A stretch of DNA of 64,000 nucleotides from Paraburkholderia phytofirmans PsJN (GTDB taxonomy: Bacteria > Pseudomonadota > Gammaproteobacteria > Burkholderiales > Burkholderiaceae). Position 1 is the first letter of the stretch. Every line of letters begins with the position of its first letter. Below the pieces are notes generated by a model, which was given only the letters and a program-made list of their open reading frames with translations, did no database searches and was not told the origin of the DNA. The DNA lies in NCBI RefSeq assembly GCF_000020125.1, contig NC_010681.1, forward strand, positions 124,001-188,000, given 5' to 3'. The translations under genes were made by a program, and so were the position numbers. Positions 19,546 to 37,679 of the stretch are shown here, one piece after another.

Positions 19546-19569
19546 CGCTACGCTCCAGTGTCAAGCTGT

Positions 19570-21093: not shown

Positions 21094-21117
21094 AACGGGA
21101 GCGATGAAGCTCCCGTT
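21094..21117 (-). terminator. Intrinsic terminator at the end of the transposon operon
   Basis: Nine-base perfect stem AACGGGAGC / GCTCCCGTT with a six-base loop; on the minus strand it is followed by TTTTAC. It lies just after the stop of the last transposon gene (21124) and would shield the downstream luxR remnant and luxI from element transcription. Confidence 0.75.
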
Positions 21118-21123
21118 GTCGTT

Positions 21124-21339: not shown

Positions 21340-21340
21340 G

Positions 21341-22198: not shown

Positions 22199-23631
22199 GC
22201 CTCCTCCTGCCAGTTGGCGGGAATCCAGGCTGGCGGCAACCCGGTTGCGGCGTGGTCGGCCAGCATCTGGCGTAGCAGCGGCGCGATGCCGGGCGCACTG
22301 GCCGGTGGCGGCTCGACATTGACGGCATCGAGTCGCCTGCGCTGGCCATCAGCATTGGCGGCCTTGTCCAGCGGCCGCAGCGGGCACAGCACGGCGCCGC
22401 TGCCGGCGTCGACGAGATCGACGCCGCTCAGGTCCCAGCGCGCATAGCGCAGGTGCACGCGCTGCAGGTGCCGGTAGGCCGAGGGAATCTCGAAGCGCGT
22501 GCCGGCCAGACTCACGGTGCCATCCGAGCGCCGCTGGGCGCGCGTCACGTCGATACGGAATGCGGCGCGCAGCGCGTCACTCGACGGGCATTCGCGGCCC
22601 ACATCGGGGCCGGCCAGATAGCGTTTGAGCGGCGTGCCACCGATCTCAGAATGATGCGCGTGGTGGTACTCGCGCTCGATCCACGCGTGGGTGGCCTGAT
22701 TGAGCAGTTCGAGCGTGAGATTGGGCTCGCCTTCGAGCATGGCCATCACGCGCCCTTCGATGCGGGCCCAGAACGTTTCCTGCTTCGCGTTCTGGTACGG
22801 CGAATATGGCAAGGTCGTCTGGTGCAGCACGCCGAGCGCGAGCAAGCCGGCGGTCGTCTCCTCGGCAAGCATTGCTGCGCCGTTGTCGGTCATCAGTGCG
22901 CGAGGCCGGCCACGACGCTGGAGCGCCTGGGTGAGCCCATGGATCAGACTACGTGCGGTCTCATCGAGAAACCATTGCGCGTGACAGACGACGCGCGAAC
23001 GGTCATCGAGCACGCACAGCAGCATCGGCGTGATCCACTGGCCATCATGCGTGAGCAGCTTGCGCGAGCCGTGATGGAAATCGAGATGCCAGAGCGCGTT
23101 GACGTGCTCGACCTCGAAGCTGCGGACCTCGAGCTTCTCGAGGCGATCGCGTGCGAGCATCGCGCCGGCGCTGGTATGACGCGGCTTGCGTTCACGGGAC
23201 AGGCCCTGCGCACGCAGATAACGACGCACCGTCGTGTACGACGGCAGGTTCGCCGGGCCGAGCGTGACCTTGAGATTGTCGACGTGCAACTGGCAGGTCC
23301 AGCCGGGATGTTCCCGGTACTGCGCGCGAATCGCCTGTACCGCCTGAGGCGACAGGCTTGCGCCGGCGCCGCTGGGGCGCTTGCGGTCGCGCAGGCTCGC
23401 CACCGGATCGTGGGCCGCCTTGCGGGCCCGGTAGAACCACCGCTCAACGGTGGAGCGGCCGAACTGGACATCGTCGCCAGTGACGGGATGACGCCAGCGT
23501 TTGGCGGCCAGCGCGGTGATGAGTTCGCGCACCTGCCCGGGTTCAGGCGGTGCTGCCAGCAAGGGGCCCACAACCGCAAAGCGCAGGCGCGCCCAACGAT
23601 CCCGCAGGGGTAAATCGTGAAGTTCAGTCAT
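22195..23631 (-). CDS. DDE transposase with rve core and Mu-type C-terminal domain
   Basis: A 478-residue transposase. N-terminal HTH region ([16 protein letters not shown]), rve catalytic core with the acidic triad visible as the Asp of [10 protein letters not shown], the Asp of [10 protein letters not shown] and the Glu of [13 protein letters not shown], and a C-terminal beta-barrel region typical of Mu/TniA transposases. The ATG at 23631, preceded by GGAGAGAGC, is chosen over an extension to 23655. It is intact, matching the intact element ends. Confidence 0.92.
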
Positions 23632-23729
23632 GCTCTCTCCAGGGATGCGGCGCACCGCGCCGCGATTCGGGGGAGAGGCGAGACTACCGGCGCAGTCCGA
23701 GGGGGGCGAGCGACAAGTTCTGCGGGCGG

Positions 23730-24308
23730 TTACCGTCCCTCACGCAGGGTGCTCACGGCGCTGCCGCTGGTGAGCGGTGAGAGCCAGCGCAGCAGGCATG
23801 GCAATGGCTCGGCAGGCTGCGTGGTAGCGAAGCGCTCGAGCAGGCTTGCCGGCACCTGTGCGGTCTCGACGGGCGGCACGAACGCCGCCCGTCCGAGCGC
23901 CCAGAACGGTGTGCCGACAAACCCGGTCATCCACCAGTGCCGCCATCGCGCGATCGTCGAGGGTGGCACGCCCAGCGCATCGAGCTGGCGCATTGCCGCG
24001 GCCGTACCGGCGCTCGCACGCGTGGCGCTGACGACAATCATGATTGCGGCGGTGTAGACGCGCCGGCCGAGAAAGCGCACCGAGAATGGCGTGGTACGAC
24101 GGCGACAGTCGGCGCAGCAGAAGCTGTAGCGGAACTCGCAGTGGCAGCGGGCTTCGTATGAAATTCCGCGCGGCTTGCGCGGGTAGCGGGCGCTATGGAG
24201 TACGCCACCGCAGCGACAACGCTGCGCGCGGGTCTGTTCGGCGAAGTCCTGATCGATACGTAACAGCAGGTGATAGAAGTTGGGATCGCGGGCACTCACG
24301 TGGCACAC
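23730..24308 (-). CDS. Zinc-ribbon protein of the transposon
   Basis: A 192-residue protein with an N-terminal cysteine-rich region: QRCRCGG, then EARCHCEFRYSFCCADCRRR, which looks like one or two zinc ribbons as in transposase-associated proteins. The C-terminal part (RQLDALGVPPSTIARWRHWW) looks like a helix-turn-helix. It lies between the right end and the transposase on the same strand. The role is not known. Confidence 0.75.
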   Translation of the reverse strand: MCHVSARDPNFYHLLLRIDQDFAEQTRAQRCRCGGVLHSARYPRKPRGISYEARCHCEFRYSFCCADCRRRTTPFSVRFLGRRVYTAAIMIVVSATRASAGTAAAMRQLDALGVPPSTIARWRHWWMTGFVGTPFWALGRAAFVPPVETAQVPASLLERFATTQPAEPLPCLLRWLSPLTSGSAVSTLREGR

Positions 24309-24425
24309 TCTGGAAGTCTCGGTTCTTGGCAGACACGAGACTCTCCCTTGGGCGTCGTTTGTGCAAGATGCCTGAGGGAGACCCCCACCGCTACATCACG
24401 CAAGCTGCTCAAAACGCCCCGAATT

Positions 24426-24452
24426 CCCATCGATTTACGTGCTCACGCTCAG
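24426..24452 (-). repeat. Right terminal inverted repeat of the transposon
   Basis: Reads CCCATCGATTTACGTGCTCA on the plus strand up to its outer CTCAG end; exact reverse complement of 21028-21054, followed by GTTG. Confidence 0.9.
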
Positions 24453-24671
24453 GTTGCTTGAGCGGCTGCGCATGACGCGGCTGATGACGTAATGGGGAAA
24501 GCCAAGCGTCGTGGCCGCGCTGCCGAATGAATCGACAAGCGAAGGAATGTCCGAAGCGGATGCAAGACGCATCACGAGTGCAGGCGTATCAGCCAGTAGA
24601 TGATCCGCTTCAGATGCCCTGCGCTGGAGTTCGTTTGAACGGCGTCGAGAGACATGTTTCATCTTCGTCAC

Positions 24672-24980: not shown

Positions 24981-25907
24981 CTAGCGGACCAGCAGTGCAA
25001 CTGCCGAAAATCCACCGATACCCCTTGCAAACAGCAGGAATGGCTGCCCTGGCGCCAGGTCGTGACACTGGGCAAGATTGATGAATGCATCGCTGACGGT
25101 GACGTGCCCGATGCGCGAAAAGTTCTCCGAGAACAGCCGGTCCCTGGGAATCCGCAGCGAATCCAGCAACCGGTGCCACGCAGGCAGGTCAAGGTGATGC
25201 GGCAGGATACGACGGATATCGTCCAGTGCGATATGTGCCTGCCGGGCGGTGTGTGTGATCAGTCTGCGCGCCGTGAAGAAGTGTTGTGCTGCCAGGCGCG
25301 ATTCGTCTTGTTCCAGCACTCCTCGCCAGCCTGCGCCGGTGGCATGCATTGTGATCGCCACCAGGCGGTTGATGGGAGCGTCGCGCTCGATGAAGGCGGC
25401 AAACGCACCATCCCCCAGAATCCCTTCGGCGATCATTAATCTTTCTGATGCCAGCGGCATGACGTCGGCGCCGACAAGCAGCACCCGTTTCATATGGGGG
25501 CGGGCGACGAACATTGCCCTGATCACGCGCAGTGCGCCAAGGCCCGACGCACAATGCTGCTGCGCGAACGAAAAGGCTTCAGCGTTGCTGAAGCCGAACC
25601 GGTCACACAGCAGGCCCGGCAACGACTGTGGCGGCGGCGCGATGCTGCCCTGTAGTGTGTGAACATAGACGAGGCAGTCGACCTCACGCGGCGCAATAGC
25701 GGACGCAACGAGAAGGCGCTGAACCGCGCTGGCCGCCAGGCCAATTGCGGTTTGTCCGTTCGCACTGCGGTACTTATACATTCCGGCCTGCTCAAGTTTC
25801 CGCACGGTGGCGATCGTCTGCCGGGTACGTTGCCCCCAGTCCCGGATATTGTCGATGCACGGGGGGAGATAAAAAGCGACGTGCGCTATGCCGAGATCGG
25901 GAATCAT
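24981..25907 (-). CDS. FabH-fold (KAS III-like) condensing enzyme A, Cys-bearing subunit
   Basis: A 308-residue thiolase-fold protein. The nucleophile is Cys119 in FAQQHCASGLGAL; the catalytic His is His237 in LPHHLDLPAW. Where FabH has the active-site Asn (RHGN), this protein has RIGH, giving Cys-His-His, a triad otherwise seen in KAS I/II. The C-terminal glycine motif is RGIGGFSA. It overlaps the upstream partner gene by ATGA (25904-25907), and that partner lacks the nucleophile. Heterodimeric FabH-type enzymes such as PqsBC and LstAB are the nearest known design. The substrate is unknown. Confidence 0.85.
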   Translation of the reverse strand: MIPDLGIAHVAFYLPPCIDNIRDWGQRTRQTIATVRKLEQAGMYKYRSANGQTAIGLAASAVQRLLVASAIAPREVDCLVYVHTLQGSIAPPPQSLPGLLCDRFGFSNAEAFSFAQQHCASGLGALRVIRAMFVARPHMKRVLLVGADVMPLASERLMIAEGILGDGAFAAFIERDAPINRLVAITMHATGAGWRGVLEQDESRLAAQHFFTARRLITHTARQAHIALDDIRRILPHHLDLPAWHRLLDSLRIPRDRLFSENFSRIGHVTVSDAFINLAQCHDLAPGQPFLLFARGIGGFSAVALLVR

Positions 25908-26965
25908 GAGGCGGGGCGGACCTCGTCATGCTGACAGAAGGAGGGCACGCCGTTCGCGCCCAGCAGCGCCGAGCCGACGAAACCACCTATCCCGTAACCC
26001 CAGAGCAGCGTGCGGCGCGCTCGCAGAGACGCCGTGCGGTTAAGTGTCTGTGCCAGTCGTACGATGGAATCGGCTGCGCCGAGATGAATACCGACCTCAT
26101 GCTGCGCTCTCGCGTTTGGTTGGCCGAAATGCTCACTGACTGCAGCCGCGAGCGACGTCATGCCTGGCTGTCCGACAATCTCGTCAATTTCATCGCAACG
26201 AAGGGCGTGTCGCGCGAGGAGAAAGTCGATTATCGACAGCAACGAGAATGTCCAGGCCTCCGGGACGACTTCGGTACATCGTCCGACCTCCTGGGGAACG
26301 TGCCGGACTGCTGCATCGAGCAGGTACAGGCCGTCTGTTCTCCGGTCGGCTCTTTCAACGAGCAGTGCACCGGCAGCGTCCCCGTGCACGATGCCAGGTC
26401 CGCAGATTCTGGAAAACGGCGGATACCATTTCTCCGCTGCAACGATCAGTATCGTGTGCACGTCCGGTTCAGCGTCGAGCAGGTCGGAAGCAAGCCTTAA
26501 CGCTGTGAAGGGTGACGCGCCATGCTGCTGCGAGACCGAAAAAGCAAAGCACGGCGGTCCCACTTCGGCACACAGCCGCCCGGCAACCGTCGTGGAAACG
26601 TGCTCGTCCGGTATGCTATGGCAGAACATCACGACATCGATGGGTCGCACGCGATGCGGCCGCACCGAGCAGATCCCGTTTGCCACTTTTGCGGCGAGTC
26701 CTGACAGATCTGTCCTGGTTTCGACCGGTATCTCGCACGCCAGGTCGAGCGGCAGAAGACCGGGAGGCACAGGCAGCGAACCACCGGTTTCCCCATGTGG
26801 CGACGCCTCGATCCAGTGCCCGTAGTCGGGATGCCACGACTTCACCCAGGCATCCCAGCCAGAATGACCGGTCGCGCGAAGTGCCGGCTCCATTGCCGTC
26901 CATCGGGACAGCGTCATGGTATCAGGCACCCAGGCCGTCACGGCGGTGATGACGGCCGGGCTCAT
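25904..26965 (-). CDS. FabH-fold partner protein A, nucleophile replaced by Gly
   Basis: A 353-residue KAS III-like protein in which the active-site position reads VSQQHGASPF, Gly149 in place of Cys. The segment that should hold the catalytic His reads EIVGQPGMTS, so His is lost too. The C-terminal GYGIGGFVGSALL glycine motif is kept, so the fold is intact. The start ATG at 26965 overlaps the GNAT stop by ATGA; an upstream extension to 27151 lies inside that gene. It is likely a non-catalytic, specificity or dimer subunit for the following gene, as PqsB is for PqsC. Confidence 0.82.
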   Translation of the reverse strand: MSPAVITAVTAWVPDTMTLSRWTAMEPALRATGHSGWDAWVKSWHPDYGHWIEASPHGETGGSLPVPPGLLPLDLACEIPVETRTDLSGLAAKVANGICSVRPHRVRPIDVVMFCHSIPDEHVSTTVAGRLCAEVGPPCFAFSVSQQHGASPFTALRLASDLLDAEPDVHTILIVAAEKWYPPFSRICGPGIVHGDAAGALLVERADRRTDGLYLLDAAVRHVPQEVGRCTEVVPEAWTFSLLSIIDFLLARHALRCDEIDEIVGQPGMTSLAAAVSEHFGQPNARAQHEVGIHLGAADSIVRLAQTLNRTASLRARRTLLWGYGIGGFVGSALLGANGVPSFCQHDEVRPAS

Positions 26966-27570
26966 GGGCCGCCCGCAGCTGAATGGAAGCCGTTGGGCAG
27001 ATCGCCCGGCAGCAGATCGTAGAGGACTCGCCCGCATCGCGATCCCTGCATGACATGGCAATCGCGCTGCATCCCGATCATGCGGAATCCGATCCGTTCG
27101 AGCAGGCGTCGCGAACGTACATTGCAGTCCACGGCCCATGCCGTGATGCAATGCAGCCGCCCGATTTCAAACGCCTCGCGAAGGATCGCCGTGGAGGCGA
27201 GAAGCGTCATGTTCCTGCACGCGGGCCGCCGACTGTCGCGCAGTACCCAGAATGAGCCCGTGCCAAAGGCGTGTGTGAGATCGCTGACGGCAACCAGTCC
27301 ACTGGCGAGGGGGTTGCCCGTGGCGCCGAAGACGCGGAGACGATGCCGGCCGCCTTGCATCATGAGCTGCACAGCGAGAACGGGAAGCGTCTGGCGACCC
27401 TGCCCGAAGTCGAACCACTGGTTGATGCCCGGATCGGCGAGCCAGGTCGCGATGTCATTGACGTCATTGCCATCGGGCTCACGCAGCCAGCATGAGGCCG
27501 TTCCTACGGACGTCTGGAGGGATCCTTCCGTCTGCCGGATGGATGCCTGTGCCTTTGCGTCGTCCCTCAC
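26962..27570 (-). CDS. GNAT-family N-acetyltransferase (RimJ/RimL-like)
   Basis: A 202-residue acyltransferase: an opening WLREPDGNDVNDIATWLADP typical of RimJ/RimL-type proteins, a beta-strand region around FGTGSFWVLRDSRRPAC, and the C-terminal NVRSRRLLERIGF acyl-CoA-binding signature of GNATs. It is 25 nt after the acyl-CoA dehydrogenase-like gene and overlaps the next gene by four bases. In this pathway it may transfer an acyl group to an amine, for instance one produced by the PLP decarboxylase; that link is inference. Confidence 0.82.
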   Translation of the reverse strand: MRDDAKAQASIRQTEGSLQTSVGTASCWLREPDGNDVNDIATWLADPGINQWFDFGQGRQTLPVLAVQLMMQGGRHRLRVFGATGNPLASGLVAVSDLTHAFGTGSFWVLRDSRRPACRNMTLLASTAILREAFEIGRLHCITAWAVDCNVRSRRLLERIGFRMIGMQRDCHVMQGSRCGRVLYDLLPGDLPNGFHSAAGGP

Positions 27571-27595
27571 ATCGAACCTCCTGCCGGTGTACGTT

Positions 27596-28684
27596 TCACC
27601 CGATTACGGTGAACGCGCGCAGCGCGGCCTCGACCTTCATGAGCAGCATCGCAAACCAGTGCACCGTCTGGAAGCGAGCCGACGGCGGCAGTCCCTGCAC
27701 GTAGCCATGGCCGCCGCAAAGCTGCACGAGTTCCCTTGCAACGTCCAGTGCCTCAGTCGCAACGTGGTGGGCCATCGACCGTACGGACCTGATCTGCACC
27801 TGCGTCTCCTGTGCTGCGACGGACCGGAGAAATAGGCGGGTGGTATGAGCCGAGATGAGCATGTCGGCGAGCCGCGCGGCGACGAGCTGATGCGCAGCGA
27901 TCGGCCTGCGGAACGTCTGGCGGGAAGCGCTGTAGGCCAGGGCGAAGTTCACGCCCTGCTGGACCGCGCCAGAAAGCAGCGCAGCGAAGTAGATGGCTGC
28001 GTCGACAAGCCACCGCCGTACCGAATTGCCGTCGGTCCTCCCGTCATCGGGCACCACCAGACACTGCATATCGCCTGCGCATGGTGGTGCTGTGGTGTAT
28101 CGTCCGATCGAGAGTGCGCCCGGCAGGGCAACGACGGCGGAGTATGGTTCGACCCGCCGGGCAGGTAGCTTGGCGAGCACGAGCTGCGGATATCCGCCCT
28201 CCAGCCGGACCATCATTGCGTGCGAGGATGCCTGCTGGCGCAACACCCAGAAACCTGAAGCGTCGACGTCGGGTATGCCAGGCGCAATCGATGTCGTGCC
28301 GTCAAGGTAGTGCTGGATAGGCTGGTCGGGCAGCCGATCGAGTGCATCGTACTCGCGCAGCGTCATCAGTGCGGCGCTGCTGAGTGTCAGTTCGGCGGCC
28401 CGCTCGAGCGGGCCCGCCGCGAACTGTTCAACGACCAGTGCAAGGTCGTGCCGGGTGATGCCCATGCCGCCCATCTGTTCCGGCAGGATCATGGTCGCGA
28501 GGTCGAGCGTGGCGGCGAGCTGGACCGTTTCGGTCCACCGCGTGGAGTCGGGTGCGCCTCCCAGTAGCGGCTCGAGGCGCTCGCGTGCGAAGTCCCTTGC
28601 GGCCGCAACGAGCCCCTGCTGGTCACCGTCGAGCGCCCACGACACAGGTACGGGATCTGCAACAACGGATTCACGGAATGGCAT
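27596..28684 (-). CDS. Acyl-CoA dehydrogenase-like flavoprotein 1
   Basis: A 362-residue acyl-CoA-dehydrogenase-fold protein. Recognisable are LPEQMGGMGITRHDLALVVE in the N-terminal helical domain, the FAD-contact segment SRQTFRRPIAAHQLVAARLA, and the C-terminal ARELVQLCGGHGYVQGLPPS. The usual catalytic Glu after the CGG(xG) helix is not obvious: the region reads SARFQTVHWF. The middle beta domain is short. The true start is the ATG at 28684, not 28780. It probably oxidises a carrier- or CoA-bound intermediate, but with a shifted or absent base. Confidence 0.82.
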   Translation of the reverse strand: MPFRESVVADPVPVSWALDGDQQGLVAAARDFARERLEPLLGGAPDSTRWTETVQLAATLDLATMILPEQMGGMGITRHDLALVVEQFAAGPLERAAELTLSSAALMTLREYDALDRLPDQPIQHYLDGTTSIAPGIPDVDASGFWVLRQQASSHAMMVRLEGGYPQLVLAKLPARRVEPYSAVVALPGALSIGRYTTAPPCAGDMQCLVVPDDGRTDGNSVRRWLVDAAIYFAALLSGAVQQGVNFALAYSASRQTFRRPIAAHQLVAARLADMLISAHTTRLFLRSVAAQETQVQIRSVRSMAHHVATEALDVARELVQLCGGHGYVQGLPPSARFQTVHWFAMLLMKVEAALRAFTVIG

Positions 28685-28709
28685 GACGTTTCTCCGGGAT
28701 AGGGCAGTG

Positions 28710-29918
28710 TCACACGAGCATTTCGACGGGTTCCGGGTGGCTGAGGAAATGCACCGGACTTGCCGAATGGCCATAGGCACCCGACTGCTTCACCACCACG
28801 AAATCCCCGATGTGCGCTTCGGGAAGTTCAACGTCGTCCGCGAGGCGGTCGAGCGGCGTGCAGAGGCACCCGACCACGTAACACCGCTCGCGTGATATGC
28901 CGTCTGGCCGGTTGCCGATCACGACCGGAAAGTTGCGGCGCAGGACCTGGCCGAAGTTGCCGGAAGCCGCCAGATGATGATGCAGTCCGCCGTCCGTGAT
29001 GACGAATGTTCTGCCGCGCGAGACTTTCCGGTCAATGACACGGCACACATAGATGCCGGCCTCTCCTACGAGATAACGCCCGAGTTCCAGAATGGGCGTG
29101 GTTCCGGGCAGACGTTCGCAAAGCCTGGGCAGCCAGTCGTGCATCGCTTCGCAGACCACCTTCGTGTCGAGTGGTGTTTCGCCCGGAAAGTAGGGGATGC
29201 CAAAGCCGCCACCCAGGTTCACGAACCGTAGTGGTCGAGGCAGATCACTGGCGAGCCGAAGGATGAGATCCACGCTCTGGCGCTGGGCCTCGATGATGGT
29301 TGAGGCATGCAGGCACTGCGAACCCCAGAAGACGTGGAAACCGGCGAGCGCGACTTCCCGCGTTTCGAGTTCGTGCAGCAATGCCGGAATCTGGTCGACA
29401 TCCACGCCGAACGGAGCCGCACTGCCGCCCATGCGCATGCCGCTGTGGCCGACCTGAAAATCGGGATTGATGCGGATCACCACGTTCGGCTGCACGCCAA
29501 GCTCCCATCCGAGCGCGGTAACAAGGCGCAACTGGGTATCCGACTCGACGTGAACGTTGACGCCGCTGGCGACCGCGCGGCGCAGGTCGTCGTGAGACTT
29601 GCCTGGCCCGGCAAAGCCGATTGAGTCGGGAGTGGCACCGGCATCGAGTGCCAGCGCCATCTCCTGCGCGGAGGCAACATCGAACCCGTCGACCCGTTGG
29701 GCCAGGTAGTGGATCACGGCGGGCATCGGGTTCGCCTTGATCGAGTAGTGCAGCTGCATGGCGGAGGGCAGCAGGCTGCGCAATTCCCGCACACGGGTGT
29801 CGATCGCCGAGCGGTCGTACGCGAAAAAGGGTGTCTGGCCGGCACGGTCGGCCAGCTGGCGCACGTCGATACCATTGAACTGCAGCCCGGGTGGGCGCTG
29901 GAGGAAAGTCAGGCTCAT
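28710..29918 (-). CDS. PLP-dependent decarboxylase, DAP/ornithine type (exosortase-A-associated subfamily)
   Basis: A 402-residue fold-type III decarboxylase. The PLP lysine is Lys61 in LHYSIKANPMPA; the phosphate-binding glycine run is FVNLGGGFGIPYF; GRYLVGEAGIYV and the active-site Cys region VVGCLCTPLDRLADD follow. The pattern matches the subfamily paired with an AMP-forming acyl ligase and a carrier protein in exosortase-A regions, a pairing repeated here: its start overlaps the ligase stop by ATGA. The likely chemistry is removal of a carboxylate from an amino acid or its thioester; the substrate is unknown. Confidence 0.88.
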   Translation of the reverse strand: MSLTFLQRPPGLQFNGIDVRQLADRAGQTPFFAYDRSAIDTRVRELRSLLPSAMQLHYSIKANPMPAVIHYLAQRVDGFDVASAQEMALALDAGATPDSIGFAGPGKSHDDLRRAVASGVNVHVESDTQLRLVTALGWELGVQPNVVIRINPDFQVGHSGMRMGGSAAPFGVDVDQIPALLHELETREVALAGFHVFWGSQCLHASTIIEAQRQSVDLILRLASDLPRPLRFVNLGGGFGIPYFPGETPLDTKVVCEAMHDWLPRLCERLPGTTPILELGRYLVGEAGIYVCRVIDRKVSRGRTFVITDGGLHHHLAASGNFGQVLRRNFPVVIGNRPDGISRERCYVVGCLCTPLDRLADDVELPEAHIGDFVVVKQSGAYGHSASPVHFLSHPEPVEMLV

Positions 29919-31534
29919 GATGTCCGCTCCCCTGAACGACCCGTCAGCGAGGCGGCCCCGCACGACGCAACCCCGCTGCGGAGCGCTGCCCTGTCGAATT
30001 TCCCGTTGGGATTGCGCGGCATATCCCGATAACTCACGATATGCCGGGGAACCATGTAGCGTGGAAGACGCTGCATGCACCAGTCGCGCAGCCCATCGAC
30101 ATCCGCATCACCGGCGAGGACGACAAATAGCGCCACGGCTTCGCCGAGCTCGTCATCCGGCACACCGAGCGCTACGGCTTCCACGACGAGGCCACTTGCA
30201 TGTACCGTTTCCTCGATCTCCTCAGGACTGATCCGGTAGCCGGAACTCTTGATCTGGGCGTCGTTGCGAGCGATGAAATAGAGAAAGCCTTCACTGTCGT
30301 ATCGCACAAGGTCCCCGGACCACACCGCGATGTCACGCGGCGTGCCGCCAGGTTTCGCCTCAGGCGAAGGGCGGTAGCGCTGTGCGGTGCGCGCTGCGTC
30401 GTTCCAGTAGCCGAGCGTGACGCACGCGCCCACATGGACCAGTTCGCCCGGTTCGTCGGGAGCGCACGTCGTACCGTCTTCACGGACCACCAGGACGCGC
30501 GCATTGGGCACGGCCTTGCCAATCGAATCCGGCCGATGGTCAACCTCGGCCGGGTCGAGGAACGTGGAGCGGAACGCCTCCGTCAGCCCGTACATGAGGA
30601 AGGGGGTGGCGCGCGGAAACAGCGCCCTCAGCTTCTGCAGGACGGGTAGCGGAAGGCGTCCCCCGGTATTCGCGAAATAGCGCAGATTGTTGCGCGCCGC
30701 GTCGGGCCAGTTTGCTGCTGTAAGCTGCATCCACAGGGGCGGCACACCCGTGATCGCTGTGATGCGCTCCCGCACGCACGCAAGGACGGCGTCGTGCGCC
30801 GTGAGATAGTTCAGCAGCACCGCTGTCGCGCCTGCCGACCAGGCCGAGGTCAGCTGGCTAAGGCCCGCATCGAAGCTGAGTGGCAGGACGGCGAGAATGC
30901 GGTCCGACGGACCGTGCCGCAGGTACTCAGCGACGCTCCAGGCGCCTTCAAGCAGGTTCCGGTGGCTGAGCATCACGCCCTTGGGCAAACCGGTCGAGCC
31001 GGAGGTATAGAGAAGGGCCGCAAGGTCAGTATCGATACAGGCGGCACCCGCAGACGGGATGGACGCGTCGTCGGGCCGGGTGATGCACAGGTCTCGCCAG
31101 CGGTGGAGCCTCACCGAGCCCGACAGCACAGAAGGCCCCGGGTCCGGTTCATCCACGATGATCACGTCGACCACAGGCGCAACGCCCTCCGCGGTCAGGG
31201 AACGGGCGCGCAATGCGGAGGTGACGAGGCACCGGGCGCCGCTGTCCCGAAGCACGTGGGCCACCTGGCCCGGTTTCAGGAGTGGATTCACCGGAACGAA
31301 AACGCATGCTGCGGCACTCGCGCCGAGCATCGACACAACGGTCTCAATTCGCTTGTCGAGGAGGACGGCGACGCGTTCGCCCGGAGCCACGCCGAGGGAT
31401 GAGAGGGCCTGCCCGAACGCATGGCTGTGCTGCATCAGCTGGCGGTAGGTGAGGCGGACATCGCCACAGACGAGCGATTGCGCGTCGGGTGTGCGGCGAG
31501 CGGCCGACTGGACGAGATCAAGGAGATTTCTCAT
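29915..31534 (-). CDS. AMP-forming acyl-CoA/acyl-ACP ligase (exosortase-A-associated type)
   Basis: A 539-residue ANL-superfamily adenylating enzyme: P-loop LLYTSGSTGLPKGVMLSHRN, A5-type MYGLTEAFRST, the WSGDLVRYDSEGFLYFIARN core, the hinge YRISPEEIEETV and the C-terminal catalytic Lys in NPNGKFDRAAL. The start MRNLLDLVQSAARRTPDAQS is family-like. It is followed with four-base overlap by the PLP decarboxylase and preceded by an ACP two genes back, so loading of an amino or carboxylic acid onto that ACP is the natural inference, as in PigI-type systems. Confidence 0.9.
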   Translation of the reverse strand: MRNLLDLVQSAARRTPDAQSLVCGDVRLTYRQLMQHSHAFGQALSSLGVAPGERVAVLLDKRIETVVSMLGASAAACVFVPVNPLLKPGQVAHVLRDSGARCLVTSALRARSLTAEGVAPVVDVIIVDEPDPGPSVLSGSVRLHRWRDLCITRPDDASIPSAGAACIDTDLAALLYTSGSTGLPKGVMLSHRNLLEGAWSVAEYLRHGPSDRILAVLPLSFDAGLSQLTSAWSAGATAVLLNYLTAHDAVLACVRERITAITGVPPLWMQLTAANWPDAARNNLRYFANTGGRLPLPVLQKLRALFPRATPFLMYGLTEAFRSTFLDPAEVDHRPDSIGKAVPNARVLVVREDGTTCAPDEPGELVHVGACVTLGYWNDAARTAQRYRPSPEAKPGGTPRDIAVWSGDLVRYDSEGFLYFIARNDAQIKSSGYRISPEEIEETVHASGLVVEAVALGVPDDELGEAVALFVVLAGDADVDGLRDWCMQRLPRYMVPRHIVSYRDMPRNPNGKFDRAALRSGVASCGAASLTGRSGERTS

Positions 31535-31559
31535 GGCTGGATAGCGGTCAGGTTCAGGA

Positions 31560-32507
31560 TCAGTGGCGGATCACCATGGCGCCAAAGCAGCCAGCAAGTC
31601 CGCTGGAGAACAGCAGGGAACAGGAGCCCGGTTGCCCGTGCGGCGCGGTGTGGAAGTTGATGAACGGATCCGCGCCGAACACGTGCCCATGGCGTGAGAA
31701 ATTGGCCATGTAAAGGCGCTCCTGTGGTACGGACAGCATGGTCATGAGGCGCGACCAGCCAGGCAGGTTCACGTGGTGAGGCAGGACATGGACAAGTTCA
31801 TTGCCCGTGACGCCAGCCTGTCGCAGCGCCGCACGCATCGTGGCGAATGCCGACCAGTAGTAACGGTCGTCTGGCACGGGCTGCAGGTCGTCGTCGGTGC
31901 CGCGGAAGTAGCGCCCGTCGGTATAAAGGTGCAGTCCCACGATGTCGTTGTGGCCGCCGCCGCGCTCCAGCAGGAGCGCGCATGCGCCGTCGCTGTGTAG
32001 TGCGAGATCCTGGATGGCGCGCAGATGGTCGCAGCCTGAACCCATCACGTCCGCGCAGACGACAATCGCCCGCTGGATCGGGCGCCCCGCGAGGGTGAGC
32101 ACGCGCAGCACGCGGATGGCGGCCATCGGCGAGACGCAGTTCTGCTGCATCACCGAGAACGCGAGTGCGCGGTCCAGTCCCATATGGGACTGGACGAAGG
32201 CTGCCGTGCCGGCAGGCGGTGCCATGACGCTGCTCTGGATGGTGTGCGTGTAGATCAGGGAATCGATACTTGCCGGTGTCGTGCCCGTATCTTCAAGCAG
32301 GGCGGCAACCGCTTCGCAAGCGAATGTGACGGGAGAAGCCGCTGCGGCGTCGTGGAACTGCTGCACACCGTTCTTCAGCAGTCCCGTCGCGCGGGCCTCG
32401 GGCAATCCGCAGCGACGAGCCCAGGTGTTCGCATCGACCGACCGGGCCGGAACGCTGAATGCGATACCGGACAGCGACAGCACGGAACGGGTTGAGGGCG
32501 CAGGCAT
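31560..32507 (-). CDS. FabH-fold condensing enzyme B, Cys-bearing subunit
   Basis: A 315-residue paralog of the enzyme at 24981-25907. Nucleophile Cys124 in VMQQNCVSPMAA, catalytic His244 in LPHHVNLPGW, and His275 in SRHGHVFGAD where FabH has Asn. It ends with the glycine motif SSGLAGCFGA. The ATG at 32507 is two bases after the stop of its partner gene; a long upstream extension to 32897 runs through that gene and is rejected. The same gene order (Gly subunit, then Cys subunit) as pair A points to duplication of a two-gene unit. Confidence 0.86.
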   Translation of the reverse strand: MPAPSTRSVLSLSGIAFSVPARSVDANTWARRCGLPEARATGLLKNGVQQFHDAAAASPVTFACEAVAALLEDTGTTPASIDSLIYTHTIQSSVMAPPAGTAAFVQSHMGLDRALAFSVMQQNCVSPMAAIRVLRVLTLAGRPIQRAIVVCADVMGSGCDHLRAIQDLALHSDGACALLLERGGGHNDIVGLHLYTDGRYFRGTDDDLQPVPDDRYYWSAFATMRAALRQAGVTGNELVHVLPHHVNLPGWSRLMTMLSVPQERLYMANFSRHGHVFGADPFINFHTAPHGQPGSCSLLFSSGLAGCFGAMVIRH

Positions 32508-32509
32508 CG

Positions 32510-33532
32510 CTAGCTCCCGCAGTATTGAAGGATCGCGCAGGCAGCCTGCGCCTGGAGGCCGGTCGCCCACAGCAGGATGCGTTGCCCATCCGTCGGAGCA
32601 ACCGACCGCAGCAATACGTGGAGCTGCGCCAGCGCGTCTGCGGCACATAGATACCCGATGTCGCGCGGTTCGGGGTACCACATCCGCCAGACAGGAAGCC
32701 CGGCATCTGCACTGACGTCGCATGCCAGGGTGGTATTGATGCGCGGGGGCACTACCCAGTTGATTTCCGCGGGGTTCAGGCCTGCCTGCGTGCACGTCCG
32801 CCCGATGACTTCGACCAGGACTGTTTCGTCGACACAGACATCGAGGAACGAAAATGGGAGGCCGGGCGTATCGACGTTGACAGTGAGCACGCGCCATCCG
32901 GGCCCCACCTGCCGCGTGACCAGCGCGGCGGCTGCACCGTCACCCAATGCGGTGAGCGCGCCGACCTGCCTGGAGAACGGTGGCAGCCAGCGTTCAGCGC
33001 CGACGATCAGTGCGCTGCGCATGCGCTCGTCGCTGGCCATCATGTCGGACACCATCTGCAGCGCAAGAAAGAAAGAGACACCCTGCAGCTGTCCAATTGC
33101 GAACGGCACACCTGTCGATCCCAGCTCGCTGTGCAGCCGCCCCGCGCACGATAGCGCGAGGTCGTCCTCAAAACTTGTCGCACAGACGATGAGCTGGTCC
33201 GGCGGGAGGTTGTCCTTCCCGGGAGACCGGCGCATGGTTTCCCTTGCGACCATTGATGCCATTTCCGAGAGCAGGAGGCGTGACTCGCAGGCGACGTACT
33301 CCGGCATCGCGGTGCCCGGCGGGCTTGCCGAATGATGGACGGAGCCCGGAACCACCTCAGGGCGCCAGCGCAGCGTATCGGCATAGACTGACCGCATGAT
33401 GGCTTCGCGCGCGGATGAAGGGGGGGCCGGATGCTGTAGCGCAACGTTGGCCCGCACGCGCGCTGCCGGAACATACCGCGCCGTGGTCGCTATGCAGGGC
33501 CGCTGGCGAACGGGGTCAGTCGCGGGGGACAT
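32510..33532 (-). CDS. FabH-fold partner protein B, nucleophile replaced by Gly
   Basis: A 340-residue KAS III-like protein with IGQLQGVSFF at the active-site elbow (Gly151 for Cys) and NWVVPPRINTT where the PH of the catalytic His should be, so both catalytic residues are gone. The DGAAAALV and C-terminal WATGLQAQAACAIL segments keep the fold. It overlaps the ACP stop by 17 bases and is followed by its catalytic partner after two. This is the second non-catalytic/catalytic pair in the operon. Confidence 0.82.
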   Translation of the reverse strand: MSPATDPVRQRPCIATTARYVPAARVRANVALQHPAPPSSAREAIMRSVYADTLRWRPEVVPGSVHHSASPPGTAMPEYVACESRLLLSEMASMVARETMRRSPGKDNLPPDQLIVCATSFEDDLALSCAGRLHSELGSTGVPFAIGQLQGVSFFLALQMVSDMMASDERMRSALIVGAERWLPPFSRQVGALTALGDGAAAALVTRQVGPGWRVLTVNVDTPGLPFSFLDVCVDETVLVEVIGRTCTQAGLNPAEINWVVPPRINTTLACDVSADAGLPVWRMWYPEPRDIGYLCAADALAQLHVLLRSVAPTDGQRILLWATGLQAQAACAILQYCGS

Positions 33533-33794
33533 GGGATTCCACGAAGTCGACGAGGTTGCTGAAGCGCATGAACAGATCGGCAGACAGGTCCTCAGGCGCG
33601 AGCGTGAAGCCGAAACGTTCCTCGAGCTGAAGCAGCAGGTCTGTCATGTTCATGGAGTCGACACCGACGTCGAACAGGTTGGTGTCGTCTGCGATCAGGT
33701 CTGCAGCCACGGTGCTGCCGATGGCCGATACCAGGCACGACCGGATCGTGGCGGCGATTTCCTCGCGTCTGGGGCTGTGCGTGTCATGCGTCAT
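33516..33794 (-). CDS. Acyl carrier protein
   Basis: A 92-residue carrier protein with the phosphopantetheine site FDVGVDSMNMTDLLLQLEER; Ser is the attachment point. An acidic helix II follows as expected for ACPs. The ATG at 33794 follows a GGAGACATCCC ribosome site; the frame itself extends upstream into the flavoprotein gene. It overlaps genes on both sides (11 and 17 bases). As the only carrier protein in the operon it probably shuttles the intermediate between ligase, flavoproteins and condensing enzymes. Confidence 0.9.
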   Translation of the reverse strand: MTHDTHSPRREEIAATIRSCLVSAIGSTVAADLIADDTNLFDVGVDSMNMTDLLLQLEERFGFTLAPEDLSADLFMRFSNLVDFVESHVPRD

Positions 33795-35094
33795 GGGATG
33801 TCTCCTGCCCGGGCTGGCGTACGTTGGCGATGTCAGGGGATGAGTCGGACGCGGTGGTGTCGCGGGAGGGAGGCTCCGTGATGTCCCACGAACTTGGCGT
33901 CGATCGCAGCGCGGCCCGCGCAATCATGAGTCGCTGCAGGTCGCCGGTGCCTTCCATGATGTCGAAGGCCCTGGCGTCCCGGTAAGCCTGCTCGAGTGAC
34001 GGACAGGCGGTGATGCCGTCGATACCGGCGAGGTCCATTGCGGCGCGCGTCACCCGCGCGGCCACGCGCGAGGCAAACGCCTTGGTCATAGACGAATCCA
34101 TGGGCGTCACGATGCCGCGATCCGTCTTCCAGGCCGTGCAGTGACAGAGCAGCCAGGCGGCCGTGATCTGGCGGTCGATGTCGAGCAGCGTCGCTGCCAC
34201 GCCTGCCACGTGCTGATGCCTGTCCACGGGTGTTCCACCCCCATCGAGCCAGGCGGCGAGGTCCGCGCGCACCCGCCGGCAGGTACCGACCATGACGGCG
34301 GAAAGCAGTGGCCGGAAGTAGTCCCAGGATCGCTGCGCACCCGAGAAGGCGTCGTCGAGCGGCTTCTCGTCGCCGCGGACAAGAAGCGCATCGTCGGGTA
34401 CCTCGCAGTCGGCATAGGAGAGCACGGCAAGCTGGGTTGCGCGCAGGCCGGCCATCCGCTCGATGCGCGAAACCGTGAATCCGGGTGTATTGCAGTCCAC
34501 GAGGAACGCGCGGATACCGTAGCGGCCCATCTGCCGGTTGATCGTGGCAAACGTGATCACGCAACCGGCGCGTGCGCCGTTTGTGATAAAGCACTTGGTG
34601 CCATTCAGGGCCCAGCCTCGGCTGGTTTTCCGCGCGGTTGTACGCATGGCAGTCGCGTCGGAGCCACAGTCAGGTTCGGTGATGGCGAAGGCGCCCCAGC
34701 GTGGCGTGCCGGACTGGAACCCCTGGAAGAACCGGGCCTGCTGTCTGGCGGATGCGAGCGCAACGACCGGTGGCATGGCGAGTCCCGGGCCGGGCAACGC
34801 CAGCGCAAGGCTCGCGTCGGCCTCCCCGAGGCAGGCCATCAGCGTTGCCTGCGCCACGAGGGACTGCAGGGCCGGGCAGCCGCCGTACCGGGTGGGCACG
34901 AGGTTCATGTTCAGGGCGGATACGTCGTCCGGGCGCCAGGGAGGACCGGCGATGTCACCGGTCACGTCTGATTCGAGGCTGACTGCCCGCATTCGCCGCG
35001 CGAGCAGTCCGAGATCGAGCCCGCGATCGGCGAGCGCGGTACCGATATCATCGATGGTGTGAGCCTGCTGCAGCGTCTGTTGATACTGGGCCAT
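33784..35094 (-). CDS. Acyl-CoA dehydrogenase-like flavoprotein 2
   Basis: A 436-residue acyl-CoA dehydrogenase. It has the FAD signature WGAFAITEPDCGSDATAMRT, NGTKCFITNGARAG, and the C-terminal AFDIMEGTGDLQRLMIAR with the Glu expected as catalytic base, so it should be active. The ATG at 35094 opens the protein; it is the first gene of the minus-strand operon, facing the GntR gene across 239 bases. In carrier-protein pathways such enzymes oxidise prolyl- or acyl-ACP; whether it does so here is inference. Confidence 0.9.
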   Translation of the reverse strand: MAQYQQTLQQAHTIDDIGTALADRGLDLGLLARRMRAVSLESDVTGDIAGPPWRPDDVSALNMNLVPTRYGGCPALQSLVAQATLMACLGEADASLALALPGPGLAMPPVVALASARQQARFFQGFQSGTPRWGAFAITEPDCGSDATAMRTTARKTSRGWALNGTKCFITNGARAGCVITFATINRQMGRYGIRAFLVDCNTPGFTVSRIERMAGLRATQLAVLSYADCEVPDDALLVRGDEKPLDDAFSGAQRSWDYFRPLLSAVMVGTCRRVRADLAAWLDGGGTPVDRHQHVAGVAATLLDIDRQITAAWLLCHCTAWKTDRGIVTPMDSSMTKAFASRVAARVTRAAMDLAGIDGITACPSLEQAYRDARAFDIMEGTGDLQRLMIARAALRSTPSSWDITEPPSRDTTASDSSPDIANVRQPGQETSHDA

Positions 35095-35212
35095 GACATG
35101 TCCCCCGGGCTGGGCGCATCTGCGCCCGGGACCGATATTCACGCTTACCCACGGACAAGGTTCACGTGTCGTATGGCCAGAGCGTAGGCATCAAGGCCCG
35201 GGTTCGTCACCT

Positions 35213-35238
35213 CCAAACATTAGGAGGGTGTTGTTTGG
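35213..35238. promoter_or_regulatory. Inverted repeat in the divergent GntR/operon control region
   Basis: CCAAAC-N14-GTTTGG is a perfect six-base inverted repeat 119 nt upstream of the first biosynthetic gene and about 96 nt before the GntR gene. Its interior carries the TTAGGAGGGTGT motif (35220-35231) also found upstream of luxI. It is a candidate binding site for the neighbouring GntR protein or the LuxR system. Confidence 0.45.
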
Positions 35239-35333: not shown

Positions 35334-36170
35334 ATGGCAGCGCGAAAACAGACGACCGAGAAAGAACCGTTGCTTCAGCCAGACAACAAGGGACCGCGCA
35401 CGACCAAGCGGGGAGATCAGGTGGCCGAGCTCATCAAGAGCTGGATTACCGACGGAAAGCTGCGCCCTGGCATGCGATTGAACAAGGAGGCGGAGCTTCA
35501 GGAAATGTTCAGCGTCAGTCGCGGGTCCATGCGCGAGGCTCTCAAGTCCCTGGAGGTGCAGGGGCTGGTGCGTCTGAGTACCGGGCCCGATGGCGGAGCG
35601 ACGATTACGCGGGTGCCGCTCGCCCGCGCATTCCAGTCGCTACAGAACTACCTGTTTTTCGAGAGCATCAGTCTTGAGGACATTTATGCTGTGCGACGTG
35701 TGCTTGAACCGCTACTTGCGGCGGGAGCGGTGGAGCATCTGACTGACGCGGATCTGGAAGCGCTCGAGTGCAGCGTGGAGGTATGCGAGCCATTTGCCGC
35801 GAGTCACGAGCGCGCGCTCGATCAGCGACAGGAGGACATCCGTTTCCACGATGTGCTGGCCCGGGCGAACCCGAACGCATTCCTCCGGCTCAGCTGTCAG
35901 ATTATCAATCAGATGCTGCATAGCCTGGTGATCGTTGCGGGCAATGTGACGCGAGACGATTACCAGGCGTTTGGCCGGCAGACCGTGGTCGCGCACCGCG
36001 CGATCCTGGATGCGGCAAGGCGCCGCGACACAGCGGCGGTGGAAAGTCTCATGGCGGCCCACATGGAGGAGGCGGAAGCGCAGCTTCGCAAGGTGCACGC
36101 CGCCTTGCGTCAAAAGCTGGTGCTGGATTCGGACGTCGGGCTGCGCACAGGAAGGAAAGGTGGTTCGTGA
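35334..36170 (+). CDS. FCD-type GntR (FadR subfamily) transcriptional regulator
   Basis: A 278-residue regulator: N-terminal winged helix (DQVAELIKSWITDGKLRPGM, then FSVSRGSMREALKSLEVQGL) and a C-terminal all-helical FCD ligand domain with metal-ligand candidates in DIRFHDVLARANPN and the VVAHRAILDAARRRD helix. It is divergent from the biosynthetic operon and next to the amidase/transport module, so it could control either. Such regulators usually bind a carboxylic acid metabolite. It starts with ATG at 35334; the C-terminal 20 residues are disordered-looking. Confidence 0.9.
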   Translation: MAARKQTTEKEPLLQPDNKGPRTTKRGDQVAELIKSWITDGKLRPGMRLNKEAELQEMFSVSRGSMREALKSLEVQGLVRLSTGPDGGATITRVPLARAFQSLQNYLFFESISLEDIYAVRRVLEPLLAAGAVEHLTDADLEALECSVEVCEPFAASHERALDQRQEDIRFHDVLARANPNAFLRLSCQIINQMLHSLVIVAGNVTRDDYQAFGRQTVVAHRAILDAARRRDTAAVESLMAAHMEEAEAQLRKVHAALRQKLVLDSDVGLRTGRKGGS

Positions 36171-36224: not shown

Positions 36225-37649
36225 TCAGTGCGTTTGGCGGGTAGCAAAGGACGAGGAAAGCGTGCGCACCAGGTCGGCGAATGGCGCGCGTCCGAAAGCG
36301 AGTTCCAAAATGTGGCTGGCCCAGAGCACGAGCGCATCCGCGTGACGCCCACCAACGATCTGCACACCGACTGGAAGACCTTCCGGAGTCGTGCCCGCGT
36401 AGATACTTGCTGCAGGCAGGCCGAGCTGGTTGCACCAGGCCGTGAAATGGGGAAACAGCTCATGGTTTGCCGCGAGTTCTGCCAGTGGCATGGCGACCCG
36501 GGTATACACCGGGCAGATGACAAGATCGTACCGCTCGAAGAACGCGTTGATAGCAGCGCCAAGTTCCCCTCGCTCGATGAGGGCGCCAAGCAACGCCTGG
36601 CGCGATATCGCCGCACCGGCATCAGAGTATGCCTGCAATGATGGATCGAGCGCCGCCCCTGCGTCAGCCATGCCTTCGGTAAGCTGCCGACAGCAGGCCG
36701 GCCAGAGCGTGGCGTGAACCGCGTTGCAGCGGACGATGCCGGGGGGATCTTCCTGTTGGACCTTGGCGCCCAGGTCACGGAAGATGTCGGCTGCGCGTTG
36801 GACTGCGTCCAGAACACTGGCTTCGGGCGTGACAGCGAGGCCCAAGGATGGACTGTACGCTATGCGCACGCCGCCCGGTGTTGGCTTGCACTTCAGACCC
36901 AGTTCATAGTCGCTGCCGTCGTGCGGTAAGGCGTACCAGTCACGACTGTCGGGGCGGCTGATGACGGTCAGGATTCGGGCAGCATCTGCGACGCACCGGG
37001 TCATCGGGCCGATATGGCTCAACAGCCCGAACGGACCGCGCGGAGCATGAGGAACGCGGCCGAAGCTCGGTTTGAAACCAAACGTACCCGTGAATGCGGC
37101 TGGAATCCGGATCGATCCGCCGCCGTCGGTGCCGATCGCGGCCGGTGCCATACCGAGCGAAACTGCGACGGCCGCTCCGCCGCTGCTGCCGCCCGGAGTC
37201 CGGCTCGTATCCCAGGGATTGCGCGTTATTCCGGTCAGTGGACTATCGGTGACGATCTTGTGAGCGAAATCTGGCAAGGTGGTCTTGGCGAAACAGAGCG
37301 CACCAGACTCGCGAAGTCTCGCTACAGATGGACTGTCGTGGGGTGATGGCGTTTCATCGGTGACGCGTGAGCCGTATCGTGTGGCGAGTCCGGCAACCGC
37401 GACGTTGTCCTTGACGCTGATTGGCACCCCGTCGAGCGGGCCAAGCGGGCGATTGCCTTTCCACCGTTTCTCCGATGCGCGGGCCATGTCGAGCGCGTCC
37501 GGAGCTATCTGGCAGAAGGCATTCACGGCTGGATCGAGCCGCTCGATACGCGTCAGCACGGCCTGGGTCACCTCGACCGGAGAGGTTGCGCCCGACTTAT
37601 ATAGCGCGTGAAGTTCCTGTGCCGTCAGATCGCAGATGTCGTCACTCAT
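36225..37649 (-). CDS. Amidase-signature family amidohydrolase 1
   Basis: A 474-residue amidase. The Ser-cisSer-Lys triad can be seen: Lys in GVPISVKDNVAVAG, Ser in TPGGSSGGAAVAV and the nucleophile Ser in GTDGGGSIRIPA. The N-terminus DLTAQELHALYKSGATSPVE is typical. The ATG at 37649 (GGAG 8 nt upstream) is preferred over ATGs at 37673. A strong promoter is just upstream (37680-37708). It is convergent with the GntR gene. About half its residues appear shared with the second amidase at 43570, suggesting related substrates. Confidence 0.9.
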   Translation of the reverse strand: MSDDICDLTAQELHALYKSGATSPVEVTQAVLTRIERLDPAVNAFCQIAPDALDMARASEKRWKGNRPLGPLDGVPISVKDNVAVAGLATRYGSRVTDETPSPHDSPSVARLRESGALCFAKTTLPDFAHKIVTDSPLTGITRNPWDTSRTPGGSSGGAAVAVSLGMAPAAIGTDGGGSIRIPAAFTGTFGFKPSFGRVPHAPRGPFGLLSHIGPMTRCVADAARILTVISRPDSRDWYALPHDGSDYELGLKCKPTPGGVRIAYSPSLGLAVTPEASVLDAVQRAADIFRDLGAKVQQEDPPGIVRCNAVHATLWPACCRQLTEGMADAGAALDPSLQAYSDAGAAISRQALLGALIERGELGAAINAFFERYDLVICPVYTRVAMPLAELAANHELFPHFTAWCNQLGLPAASIYAGTTPEGLPVGVQIVGGRHADALVLWASHILELAFGRAPFADLVRTLSSSFATRQTH

Positions 37650-37679
37650 ATCATCTCCATAGTTAATCATCATAAATAC

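Follow-up and report, generated by a model that had tools for sequence, protein, structure and literature searches.

Which product could be made by a compact run of biosynthetic genes followed by quorum-sensing genes in a soil bacterium is the question raised by the DNA analysed here, a window of 64,000 nucleotides from Paraburkholderia phytofirmans PsJN (NC_010681.1, positions 124,001 to 188,000; coordinates below are those of the window). Ten minus-strand genes, overlapping or closely spaced in one run, occupy positions 24981-35094, with luxR and then luxI downstream. From homology, conserved motifs and gene context we consider it rather probable that this operon encodes a quorum-controlled pathway for an N-acylated (dehydro-)β-alanine amide. 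Its genes are the following (KAS III, β-ketoacyl-acyl carrier protein synthase III; PLP, pyridoxal phosphate; aa, amino acids):

33784..35094, minus strand: FP1, acyl-CoA dehydrogenase-type flavoprotein, 436 aa (Pfam Acyl-CoA_dh_1/M; EGT motif kept)
33516..33794, minus strand: acyl carrier protein (ACP), 92 aa (PF00550, 44.5 bits; DSM phosphopantetheine serine)
32510..33532, minus strand: KB1, KAS III-like subunit without catalytic Cys (PF08545/PF08541)
31560..32507, minus strand: KB2, KAS III-like subunit with Cys in QQNC (PF08541/PF08545)
29915..31534, minus strand: LIG, adenylating ligase, predicted L-Asp (side-chain carboxylate):ACP ligase of the VinN/BolO/AfcQ type (TIGR03098)
28710..29918, minus strand: PLP decarboxylase, predicted substrate an ACP-bound amino acid (TIGR03099)
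27596..28684, minus strand: FP2, degenerate acyl-CoA dehydrogenase-like protein without EGT (PF00441, 52.7 bits; no match to the middle domain)
26962..27570, minus strand: GNAT-like N-acyltransferase, 202 aa (PF13302, 25.3 bits, just below the cut-off of 25.4)
25904..26965, minus strand: KA1, KAS III-fold subunit without catalytic Cys, 353 aa from the ATG at 26965 (fold match of a model)
24981..25907, minus strand: KA2, KAS III-like subunit with Cys in QQHC (PF08541/PF08545)

The joints between the genes are 4-nt ATGA overlaps (ligase/PLP decarboxylase, GNAT/KA1 and KA1/KA2), 25-nt gaps (KB2/ligase, PLP decarboxylase/FP2 and FP2/GNAT) and, at the remaining places, an 11-nt overlap, a 17-nt overlap and a 2-nt gap. 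An earlier sequence-only reading had described ten minus-strand genes with such overlaps and gaps, followed by luxR and luxI, and all of them are present. Its two FabH-type pairs were recovered as KA1/KA2 and KB1/KB2, three of the proteins by Pfam and KA1 by a model of modest confidence: KA1, searched in a 345-aa form starting at 26941, had no Pfam match, and its AlphaFold model (mean pLDDT score 69) matches KAS III and related thiolase-fold enzymes.

In the proposed pathway LIG would activate L-aspartate at the side-chain carboxylate and load it onto the ACP, and the PLP decarboxylase would remove the α-carboxylate on the carrier, which, judging from homology and pocket residues, would give β-alanyl-ACP. 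One pair of a Cys-bearing and a Cys-less KAS III protein, probably pair B, would move an acyl chain onto the β-amino group, and FP1, perhaps with the degenerate FP2 as a partner, would lead to N-acyl-dehydro-β-alanyl-ACP. Transfer of the chain to a second acceptor and its release would fall to pair A and the GNAT, which is the least certain part of the scheme. The luxR/luxI pair, of the XenR2/XenI2 type, would turn on both the operon and luxI via a shared operator.

A pattern-based scan of a genome collection with KB2, by which the number of loci is a lower bound, led to at least 25 related loci, all of them in Burkholderiaceae (Paraburkholderia, Burkholderia, Caballeronia, Trinickia and Pararobbsia). 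As the ten genes stand in identical order in 22 of the 25, the others (L007, L020 and L024) running off their contigs, the gene arrangement is not due to chance, and the 25 related loci also rule out a strain-specific oddity. The 22 complete loci include that of P. graminis C4D1M (L023), in which FP1 is split (7420-8700); the locus L016 belongs to chromosome 3 of Paraburkholderia xenovorans LB400. KA2 was matched with at least 52% identity in 25 of 398 sampled genomes of the family, the own genome included, and in 1 of 274 genomes of the class sample, which is the own genome, while no match was present in the phage collection. For KB2, matches were obtained in 2 of 399 genomes of the order sample and in 1 of 398 of the phylum sample, the own genome being counted in both. 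The motif counts given below refer to 27 operon loci, from which frames with stops or contig-end cuts were excluded, leaving 26 for LIG (without L030), 26 for the PLP decarboxylase (without L024), 25 for FP1, 26 for FP2 and 24 for the GNAT; for KA2 (24, without L007, L020 and L024) and KA1 (25, without L007 and L024) paralogue matches at contig ends were dropped.

Using KA2 we also found related Burkholderia clusters (L060 and L064-L067) with genes for a fatty acyl-AMP ligase (FAAL), a citrate synthase-like protein, a methyltransferase, a di-iron protein, a PLP enzyme, a ligase, an ACP and KAS III proteins. They are called afc-type here, after the cluster for AFC-BC11 (PMC12186527), by their gene content and not by a comparison of sequences. 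The afc-type ligase gene is interrupted in B. cenocepacia L060 (18127-19715). The order sample contributed a genome of another family (G940; L103 and L104) that has a relative of the operon in rearranged form, together with a luxR-luxI pair of its own; there one strand carries luxR, luxI, a ketosynthase (KS), GNAT, KS, Cys-less KS, ATP-grasp, ACP, Cys-less KS, MatE, FP1, FP2, ligase and decarboxylase in this order. Its ligase and decarboxylase are 50% and 54% identical to the operon proteins, and in FastTree phylogenies the AfcO type is joined by one of its Cys-type KS (local support 1.000) and the AfcR type by one of its Cys-less KS (local support 0.998); an exosortase is also present, on a separate contig. 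That G940 has the same gene types in another order and again with quorum genes speaks for one functional unit. Larger plasmid-borne clusters were seen in Agrobacterium vitis VAR03-1 (L062, 11200-30400) and Rahnella aquatilis KM12 (L063, 4400-22700), comprising KAS III-like proteins, several adenylating enzymes, ACPs, flavoproteins and a P450, with a BtrK-like decarboxylase 34-36% identical to that of the operon; we know of no product of these clusters.

The first steps of the pathway can be approached from the ligase, the decarboxylase and the ACP. LIG and the PLP decarboxylase exceed the cut-offs of TIGR03098 (685.9 bits, cut-off 592.35) and TIGR03099 (562.6 bits, cut-off 478.45), in agreement with the exosortase-type trio named before, and the DSM motif of the ACP is kept in 27 of 27 loci. 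The pocket stretches SFDAG and MYGLTEAFRST are found in all 30 ligases compared (26 from the operon and 4 afc-type) and FANTGG in 29 of them (NTGG in 30), with small changes beside the key pocket residues in a few LIG orthologues. By its motif the Asp of SFDAG, kept 30/30, is the counterpart of VinN Asp230, which faces the α-amino group. The Arg of MYGLTEAFRST, likewise kept 30/30, should be the carboxylate-binding Arg (VinN Arg331, AfcQ Arg311), an equivalence that rests on an afc-type homologue, in which the motif at 301 places the Arg at 308 with the start used, rather than on aligning VinN or AfcQ themselves. AfcQ loads L-Asp onto AfcK and AfcP decarboxylates it on the carrier, as reconstituted in vitro, the side-chain attachment being the conclusion of the authors (PMC12186527), and BolO, BolC and BolN have been proposed for the same loading and on-carrier decarboxylation in bolagladin biosynthesis (PMC7756342). 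The nearest solved relative of the PLP decarboxylase is BtrK, an L-glutamyl-[BtrI ACP] decarboxylase, with 268 bits compared to 149 bits for the next molecule, and a plain diaminopimelate or ornithine decarboxylation was rejected since BtrK is far closer. Because the LIG pocket motifs are shared with the afc-type ligases and BtrK is the nearest relative of the decarboxylase, the trio probably makes β-alanyl-ACP from L-Asp. Of the scheme drawn earlier, the loading of an acid onto the ACP and the decarboxylation are kept; pocket motifs and relatives point to L-Asp as the acid, which had been left unassigned, and to an early decarboxylation on the carrier in place of a late step to a free amine.

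For the acyl transfer the two KAS III pairs have to be considered. In KB2 the Cys, both His of the PHH motif, a Gly-His and an Asp are kept in 27 of 27 loci; except for the first His of PHH, KA2 has the same set in 24 of 24 loci. The Asp sits five residues past the His of Gly-His in both proteins, the catalytic-Asn motif of FabH being replaced there. At the Cys position of the partners KB1 has Gly in 24 loci, Ser in 2 and Asp in 1 (27 loci), and KA1 has Gly in 24 and Ser in 1 (25 loci). AfcO-type proteins show Cys, Gly-His and Asp as in KA2 and KB2 (4/4), whereas AfcR-type proteins show Thr, His and Asp or Glu at these positions, and we infer that they are the residues of the published triads, Cys/His/Asp for AfcL and AfcO and Thr/His/Glu for AfcR (PMC12186527). 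AfcL, which carries the peptide, forms an amide by handing it over to lysyl-CoA, and deletion of afcO abolishes production (PMC12186527); for bolagladin the KAS III BolM or BolP has been proposed for N-acylation (PMC7756342). It is therefore more likely that the FabH-like pairs of the operon transfer acyl groups than that they build carbon chains, and the two condensations assigned to them previously are kept as a possibility and no longer as the best reading.

The two flavoproteins differ in the EGT motif, which is found in 25 of 25 usable FP1 frames and in none of 26 FP2 frames, one of which is cut by a contig end. The best NCBIfam matches of FP1 are acryloyl-CoA reductase (151 bits, cut-off 640) and RedW (147 bits, cut-off 650), PigA reaching 119 bits (cut-off 500), and its best solved relatives are acyl-CoA dehydrogenases (151 bits), with a prolyl-ACP dehydrogenase at 98 bits. 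FP2 shows a weak match to IpdE2 (42 bits, cut-off 450), which together with the missing EGT hints at a heteromeric dehydrogenase with FP2 as a possible non-catalytic partner of FP1. In the bolagladin pathway deletion of the acyl-CoA dehydrogenase gene bolQ gives dihydro products (PMC7756342), and one flavoprotein, FP1, probably makes dehydro-β-alanine in the operon as well, acting as a desaturase of (N-acyl-)β-alanyl-ACP.

The regulatory part of the locus comprises the following features (AHL, N-acylhomoserine lactone; ORF, open reading frame):

35209..35230, minus strand: predicted LuxR-type operator at the operon promoter, imperfect dyad CACCCTCC-N8-GGAGGT
24435..24671, minus strand: luxR (xenR2-like), ORF of the N-terminal piece (matches the luxR start in relatives; alone no Pfam match)
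21029..24451, minus strand: transposon in luxR, 3.4 kb, with an integrase-core transposase (rve), an AAA ATPase (AAA_22) and a further ORF
20448..21068, minus strand: luxR (xenR2-like), ORF of the C-terminal piece (PF03472 and PF00196; scanned as 20448-21041)
20341..20362, minus strand: related site upstream of luxI with the same left half-site and a different right half
19570..20283, minus strand: luxI (xenI2-like) AHL synthase (PF00765, 67 bits)

luxR and luxI lie downstream in 21 of 22 complete loci, which bears out the description as a quorum-linked biosynthetic operon. Both genes are present in the window, but luxR is not intact: it is split by the transposon, in whose end the N-terminal ORF has its last codons (the luxR part starts from 24452) and inside whose end the C-terminal ORF begins. 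The transposon ends TGAGCG...CGCTCA carry 27-nt inverted repeats, with a GGTTGC duplication at 21023-21028 and 24452-24457. Since the genome (8.2 Mb) contains six copies with 100% identity over the 3301 bases searched, the break of luxR looks recent and the transposon was probably active recently; in this strain the broken luxR probably alters quorum control.

LuxI is 63% identical to the LuxI of L016, which from its chromosome and its luxR-luxI pair should be the XenI2/R2 locus of strain LB400. XenI2/R2 is located on chromosome 3, makes and answers 3-hydroxy-C8-homoserine lactone, with the orphan regulator BxeR acting as its repressor (PMC3742214), and the circuit was called poorly characterised in 2025 (PMC12394537). 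In the main text of a survey of luxR-linked clusters xenovorans is not named (PMC5872303). No other segment of equal length upstream of the operon is as well conserved as the operator there, which ranks first of 211 segments (from 27 loci, of which 25 are distinct), and the luxI site ranks first of 192 (23 loci, 21 distinct). With up to 3 mismatches the two-site pattern has 3 matches in the 8.2-Mb genome, namely both sites and one elsewhere, and the reversed pattern has none. We treated the third match (C3:284472; L069 5973-5994) as chance, as there is no clear target gene: the nearest minus-strand ORF longer than 200 aa begins at a distance of about 0.7 kb, and at about 1.8 kb there is a tyrosine-recombinase-like ORF, recognised by eye. 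The shared predicted operator supports quorum control of the operon.

Several observations weigh against the amide pathway as proposed. At the position of the catalytic His of FabH only 18 of 24 KA2 have His (the next residue is His in 24/24), and neither of the Cys-bearing KS of G940 has it. In the operon and afc-type ligases Thr stands where VinN Ser299 probably lies, as judged without an alignment with VinN. The decarboxylase shares no more than 25-27% identity with AfcP-type enzymes, and the substrate of BtrK itself is glutamate. The KA2 model (pLDDT 81) is matched in Foldseek by BioZ, FabH, DpsC and the acyltransferase ChlB3, ranked close together, and because C-C forming enzymes and an acyltransferase are both among them the fold does not decide the function. 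No exporter gene is found among the ten operon genes. Regarding the regulation, the complete locus L011 has no luxR/luxI within the 3.4 kb examined, and an RNA-seq study of LB400 suggests that xenI2/xenR2 potentially controls exopolysaccharide (PMC10902836). The operator pattern was built from both sites, which match it by construction, and a looser dyad has 20 matches in the window with 19.0 expected; the dyad alone accordingly proves nothing and the support comes from its conservation.

The best surviving alternative, to which we assign a minor yet appreciable probability, keeps the β-alanyl-ACP of the trio and regards the KAS III pairs as Claisen enzymes of the PqsBC or BioZ type, leading to a β-amino ketone, a nitrogen ring or another carbon-chain compound. 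Cys-bearing and Cys-less partners are combined in PqsBC as well, BioZ and FabH are the top matches of the KA2 model, the FabH-His position is His in 27 of 27 KB2, and four KAS III proteins exceed the need of a single amide bond. Acyl transfer is favoured over it by the Gly-His and the invariant Asp in place of the FabH Asn motif, as in the AfcO-type homologues, and by the amide-forming AfcL and the required AfcO of AFC-BC11 (PMC12186527). Moreover, the ten genes include no ketoreductase or dehydratase, and in a sequence search of the PDB KA2 had no match named PqsB or PqsC and only 28 bits to PqsD.

A second alternative concerns the amino acid and not the pairs: the carrier-bound unit could derive from glutamate, as γ-aminobutyryl-ACP, or from another amino acid. 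The glutamyl-ACP decarboxylase BtrK as nearest solved enzyme speaks for it, but the LIG pocket matches the AfcQ type at all three stretches examined, bar the small changes in a few orthologues, and the butirosin ligase is of a different type (ATP-grasp), which makes this origin unlikely compared to aspartate.

The third alternative starts from the exosortase-A loci and would have the operon serve the modification of cell-surface polysaccharide or protein, with the quorum genes acting on that. It could draw on the family cut-offs passed by ligase and decarboxylase and on the potential control of exopolysaccharide by xenI2/xenR2 (PMC10902836). The own genome has no exosortase match genome-wide (0/1; PEP-CTERM genes were not searched for), which upholds the earlier statement that no exosortase is visible and led us to reject an exosortase role for the operon; there is also no glycosyltransferase among the window ORFs scanned, and as the gene content is of the natural-product type we regard a surface function as very improbable. 

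In the class sample 39 of 229 genomes match TIGR03098 at E 1e-100 or better; 30 loci were returned, and removal of the own operon left 29 (L070-L098). All 29 exosortase-type ligases have YGLTEAFRS and the Asp, and at the likely place of Ser299 there is Ser in 26 and Thr in 3. Directly behind the Asp, 26 of them have Tyr and 3 have Ala, whereas the operon ligases have Ala, so the two pockets are not identical. An exosortase was found in 18 of 20 searched genomes drawn from those 29. On the basis of the shared motifs the exosortase-A trio may also make aspartyl- and β-alanyl-ACP, for which a search of the open PMC literature gave no report.

A fourth alternative, a prodigiosin-type start in which ligase, ACP and flavoprotein form pyrrolyl-2-carboxyl-ACP from proline, is suggested by RedW and PigA among the FP1 matches and was rejected as hardly credible, because these scores are far under their cut-offs, the LIG pocket has a bulky Arg, proline gives the PLP decarboxylase no use and FP1 is closer to acyl-CoA dehydrogenases than to prolyl-ACP dehydrogenase.

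Upstream of the operon two conserved neighbours are located:

35334..36170, plus strand: GntR/FCD regulator, divergent to the operon (PF07729, PF00392)
36225..37673, minus strand: amidase-family protein (PF01425, 327 bits)

The regulator was matched in 25 of 25 related loci (in L007 partially, at the contig end). The amidase gene is present in 24 of 25, the contig of L007 stopping short of it, and was not found at the B. cenocepacia locus L061. The G+C content is 0.55-0.60 over positions 1-20000 and 0.60-0.68 elsewhere in the window; the genes in that first part include cytochrome bd oxidase subunits, a bestrophin-like protein and UvrB.

With the operon and its predicted operator, the poorly characterised XenI2/XenR2 circuit gains a concrete candidate target that is directly testable in the environmental model strain LB400, and a compact gene set that occurs in numerous Paraburkholderia of soil and plants and in Burkholderia, Caballeronia, Trinickia and Pararobbsia yields a prediction of its chemistry. 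The function of the exosortase-A ligase and decarboxylase also becomes testable, as the shared Asp and Arg motifs suggest an amino acid handled by its side-chain carboxylate. A more far-reaching idea, which we put forward tentatively and consider less probable than not to hold as a whole, is a new amide assembly line that works without nonribosomal peptide synthetase (NRPS), polyketide synthase (PKS) or FAAL: two KAS III heteropairs and a pair of catalytic and non-catalytic flavoproteins would build an N-acyl enamide on a single ACP, to which the orphan XenI2/XenR2 circuit would be dedicated and which may serve it as a second signal, and the exosortase-A trio would share the chemistry from aspartate to β-alanyl-ACP.

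Compared with known systems, the operon contains the core trio, KAS III proteins and an acyl-CoA dehydrogenase of the bol and afc type. The bolagladin (bol) cluster of Burkholderia gladioli resembles it in the VinN-type ligase BolO, the ACP BolC, the BtrK-like BolN, the two KAS III BolM and BolP and the acyl-CoA dehydrogenase BolQ, which gives dehydro-β-alanine (PMC7756342). It has in addition an NRPS, citrate-primed fatty acid enzymes and a siderophore receptor gene, none of which is among the ten genes, while two KAS III pairs, the second flavoprotein, the GNAT and luxR/luxI are on the side of the operon. The afc-type loci also possess ACP and acyl-CoA dehydrogenase, and their ligases are 49-56%, their AfcO-type KAS III 29-34% and their decarboxylases 25-27% identical to those of the operon; the extras described for afc of the Burkholderia cepacia complex (FAAL, citrate synthase-like, methyltransferase, di-iron and TauD-type enzymes and transporter parts; PMC12186527) are absent from the ten genes. 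As no FAAL, NRPS, citrate synthase-like or methyltransferase gene was found among the ten genes or among 20 other ORFs scanned in the window outside its 42-64 kb part, we do not class the operon as a bol or afc cluster.

VinN, VinL and VinO of vicenistatin biosynthesis share with the operon the Asp and Arg recognition residues and the side-chain activation, the ACP loading and the decarboxylation on the carrier that are predicted for it, but VinN takes β-methyl-aspartate and feeds a modular PKS (PMC7756342). The butirosin enzymes BtrI, BtrJ and BtrK include a PLP decarboxylase for an ACP-bound amino acid, as is predicted for the operon, BtrK being the nearest solved structure, and differ in their glutamate substrate. 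Butirosin uses the other class of ligase for an aminoglycoside side chain. The exosortase-A ligase and decarboxylase have family membership and the Asp and Arg motifs in common with the operon, and are set apart by the exosortase, which the own genome lacks, and by the Tyr after the ligase Asp in 26 of 29. PqsBC, a KAS III pair of one Cys-bearing and one Cys-less subunit, parallels the pairs of the operon in a gene context that is different as a whole. For the ten-gene set or its product our searches of the open PMC literature gave no report, consistent with the earlier view that no characterised pathway has the full set, although its core follows the logic of bolagladin and AFC-BC11. What is of a known kind is this core, a VinN/BtrK-type supply of β-aminoacyl-ACP; what is new is the set as a whole, in which two KAS III pairs occur next to two flavoproteins while none of the ten genes encodes an NRPS, PKS, FAAL or citrate enzyme, together with its link to quorum sensing.

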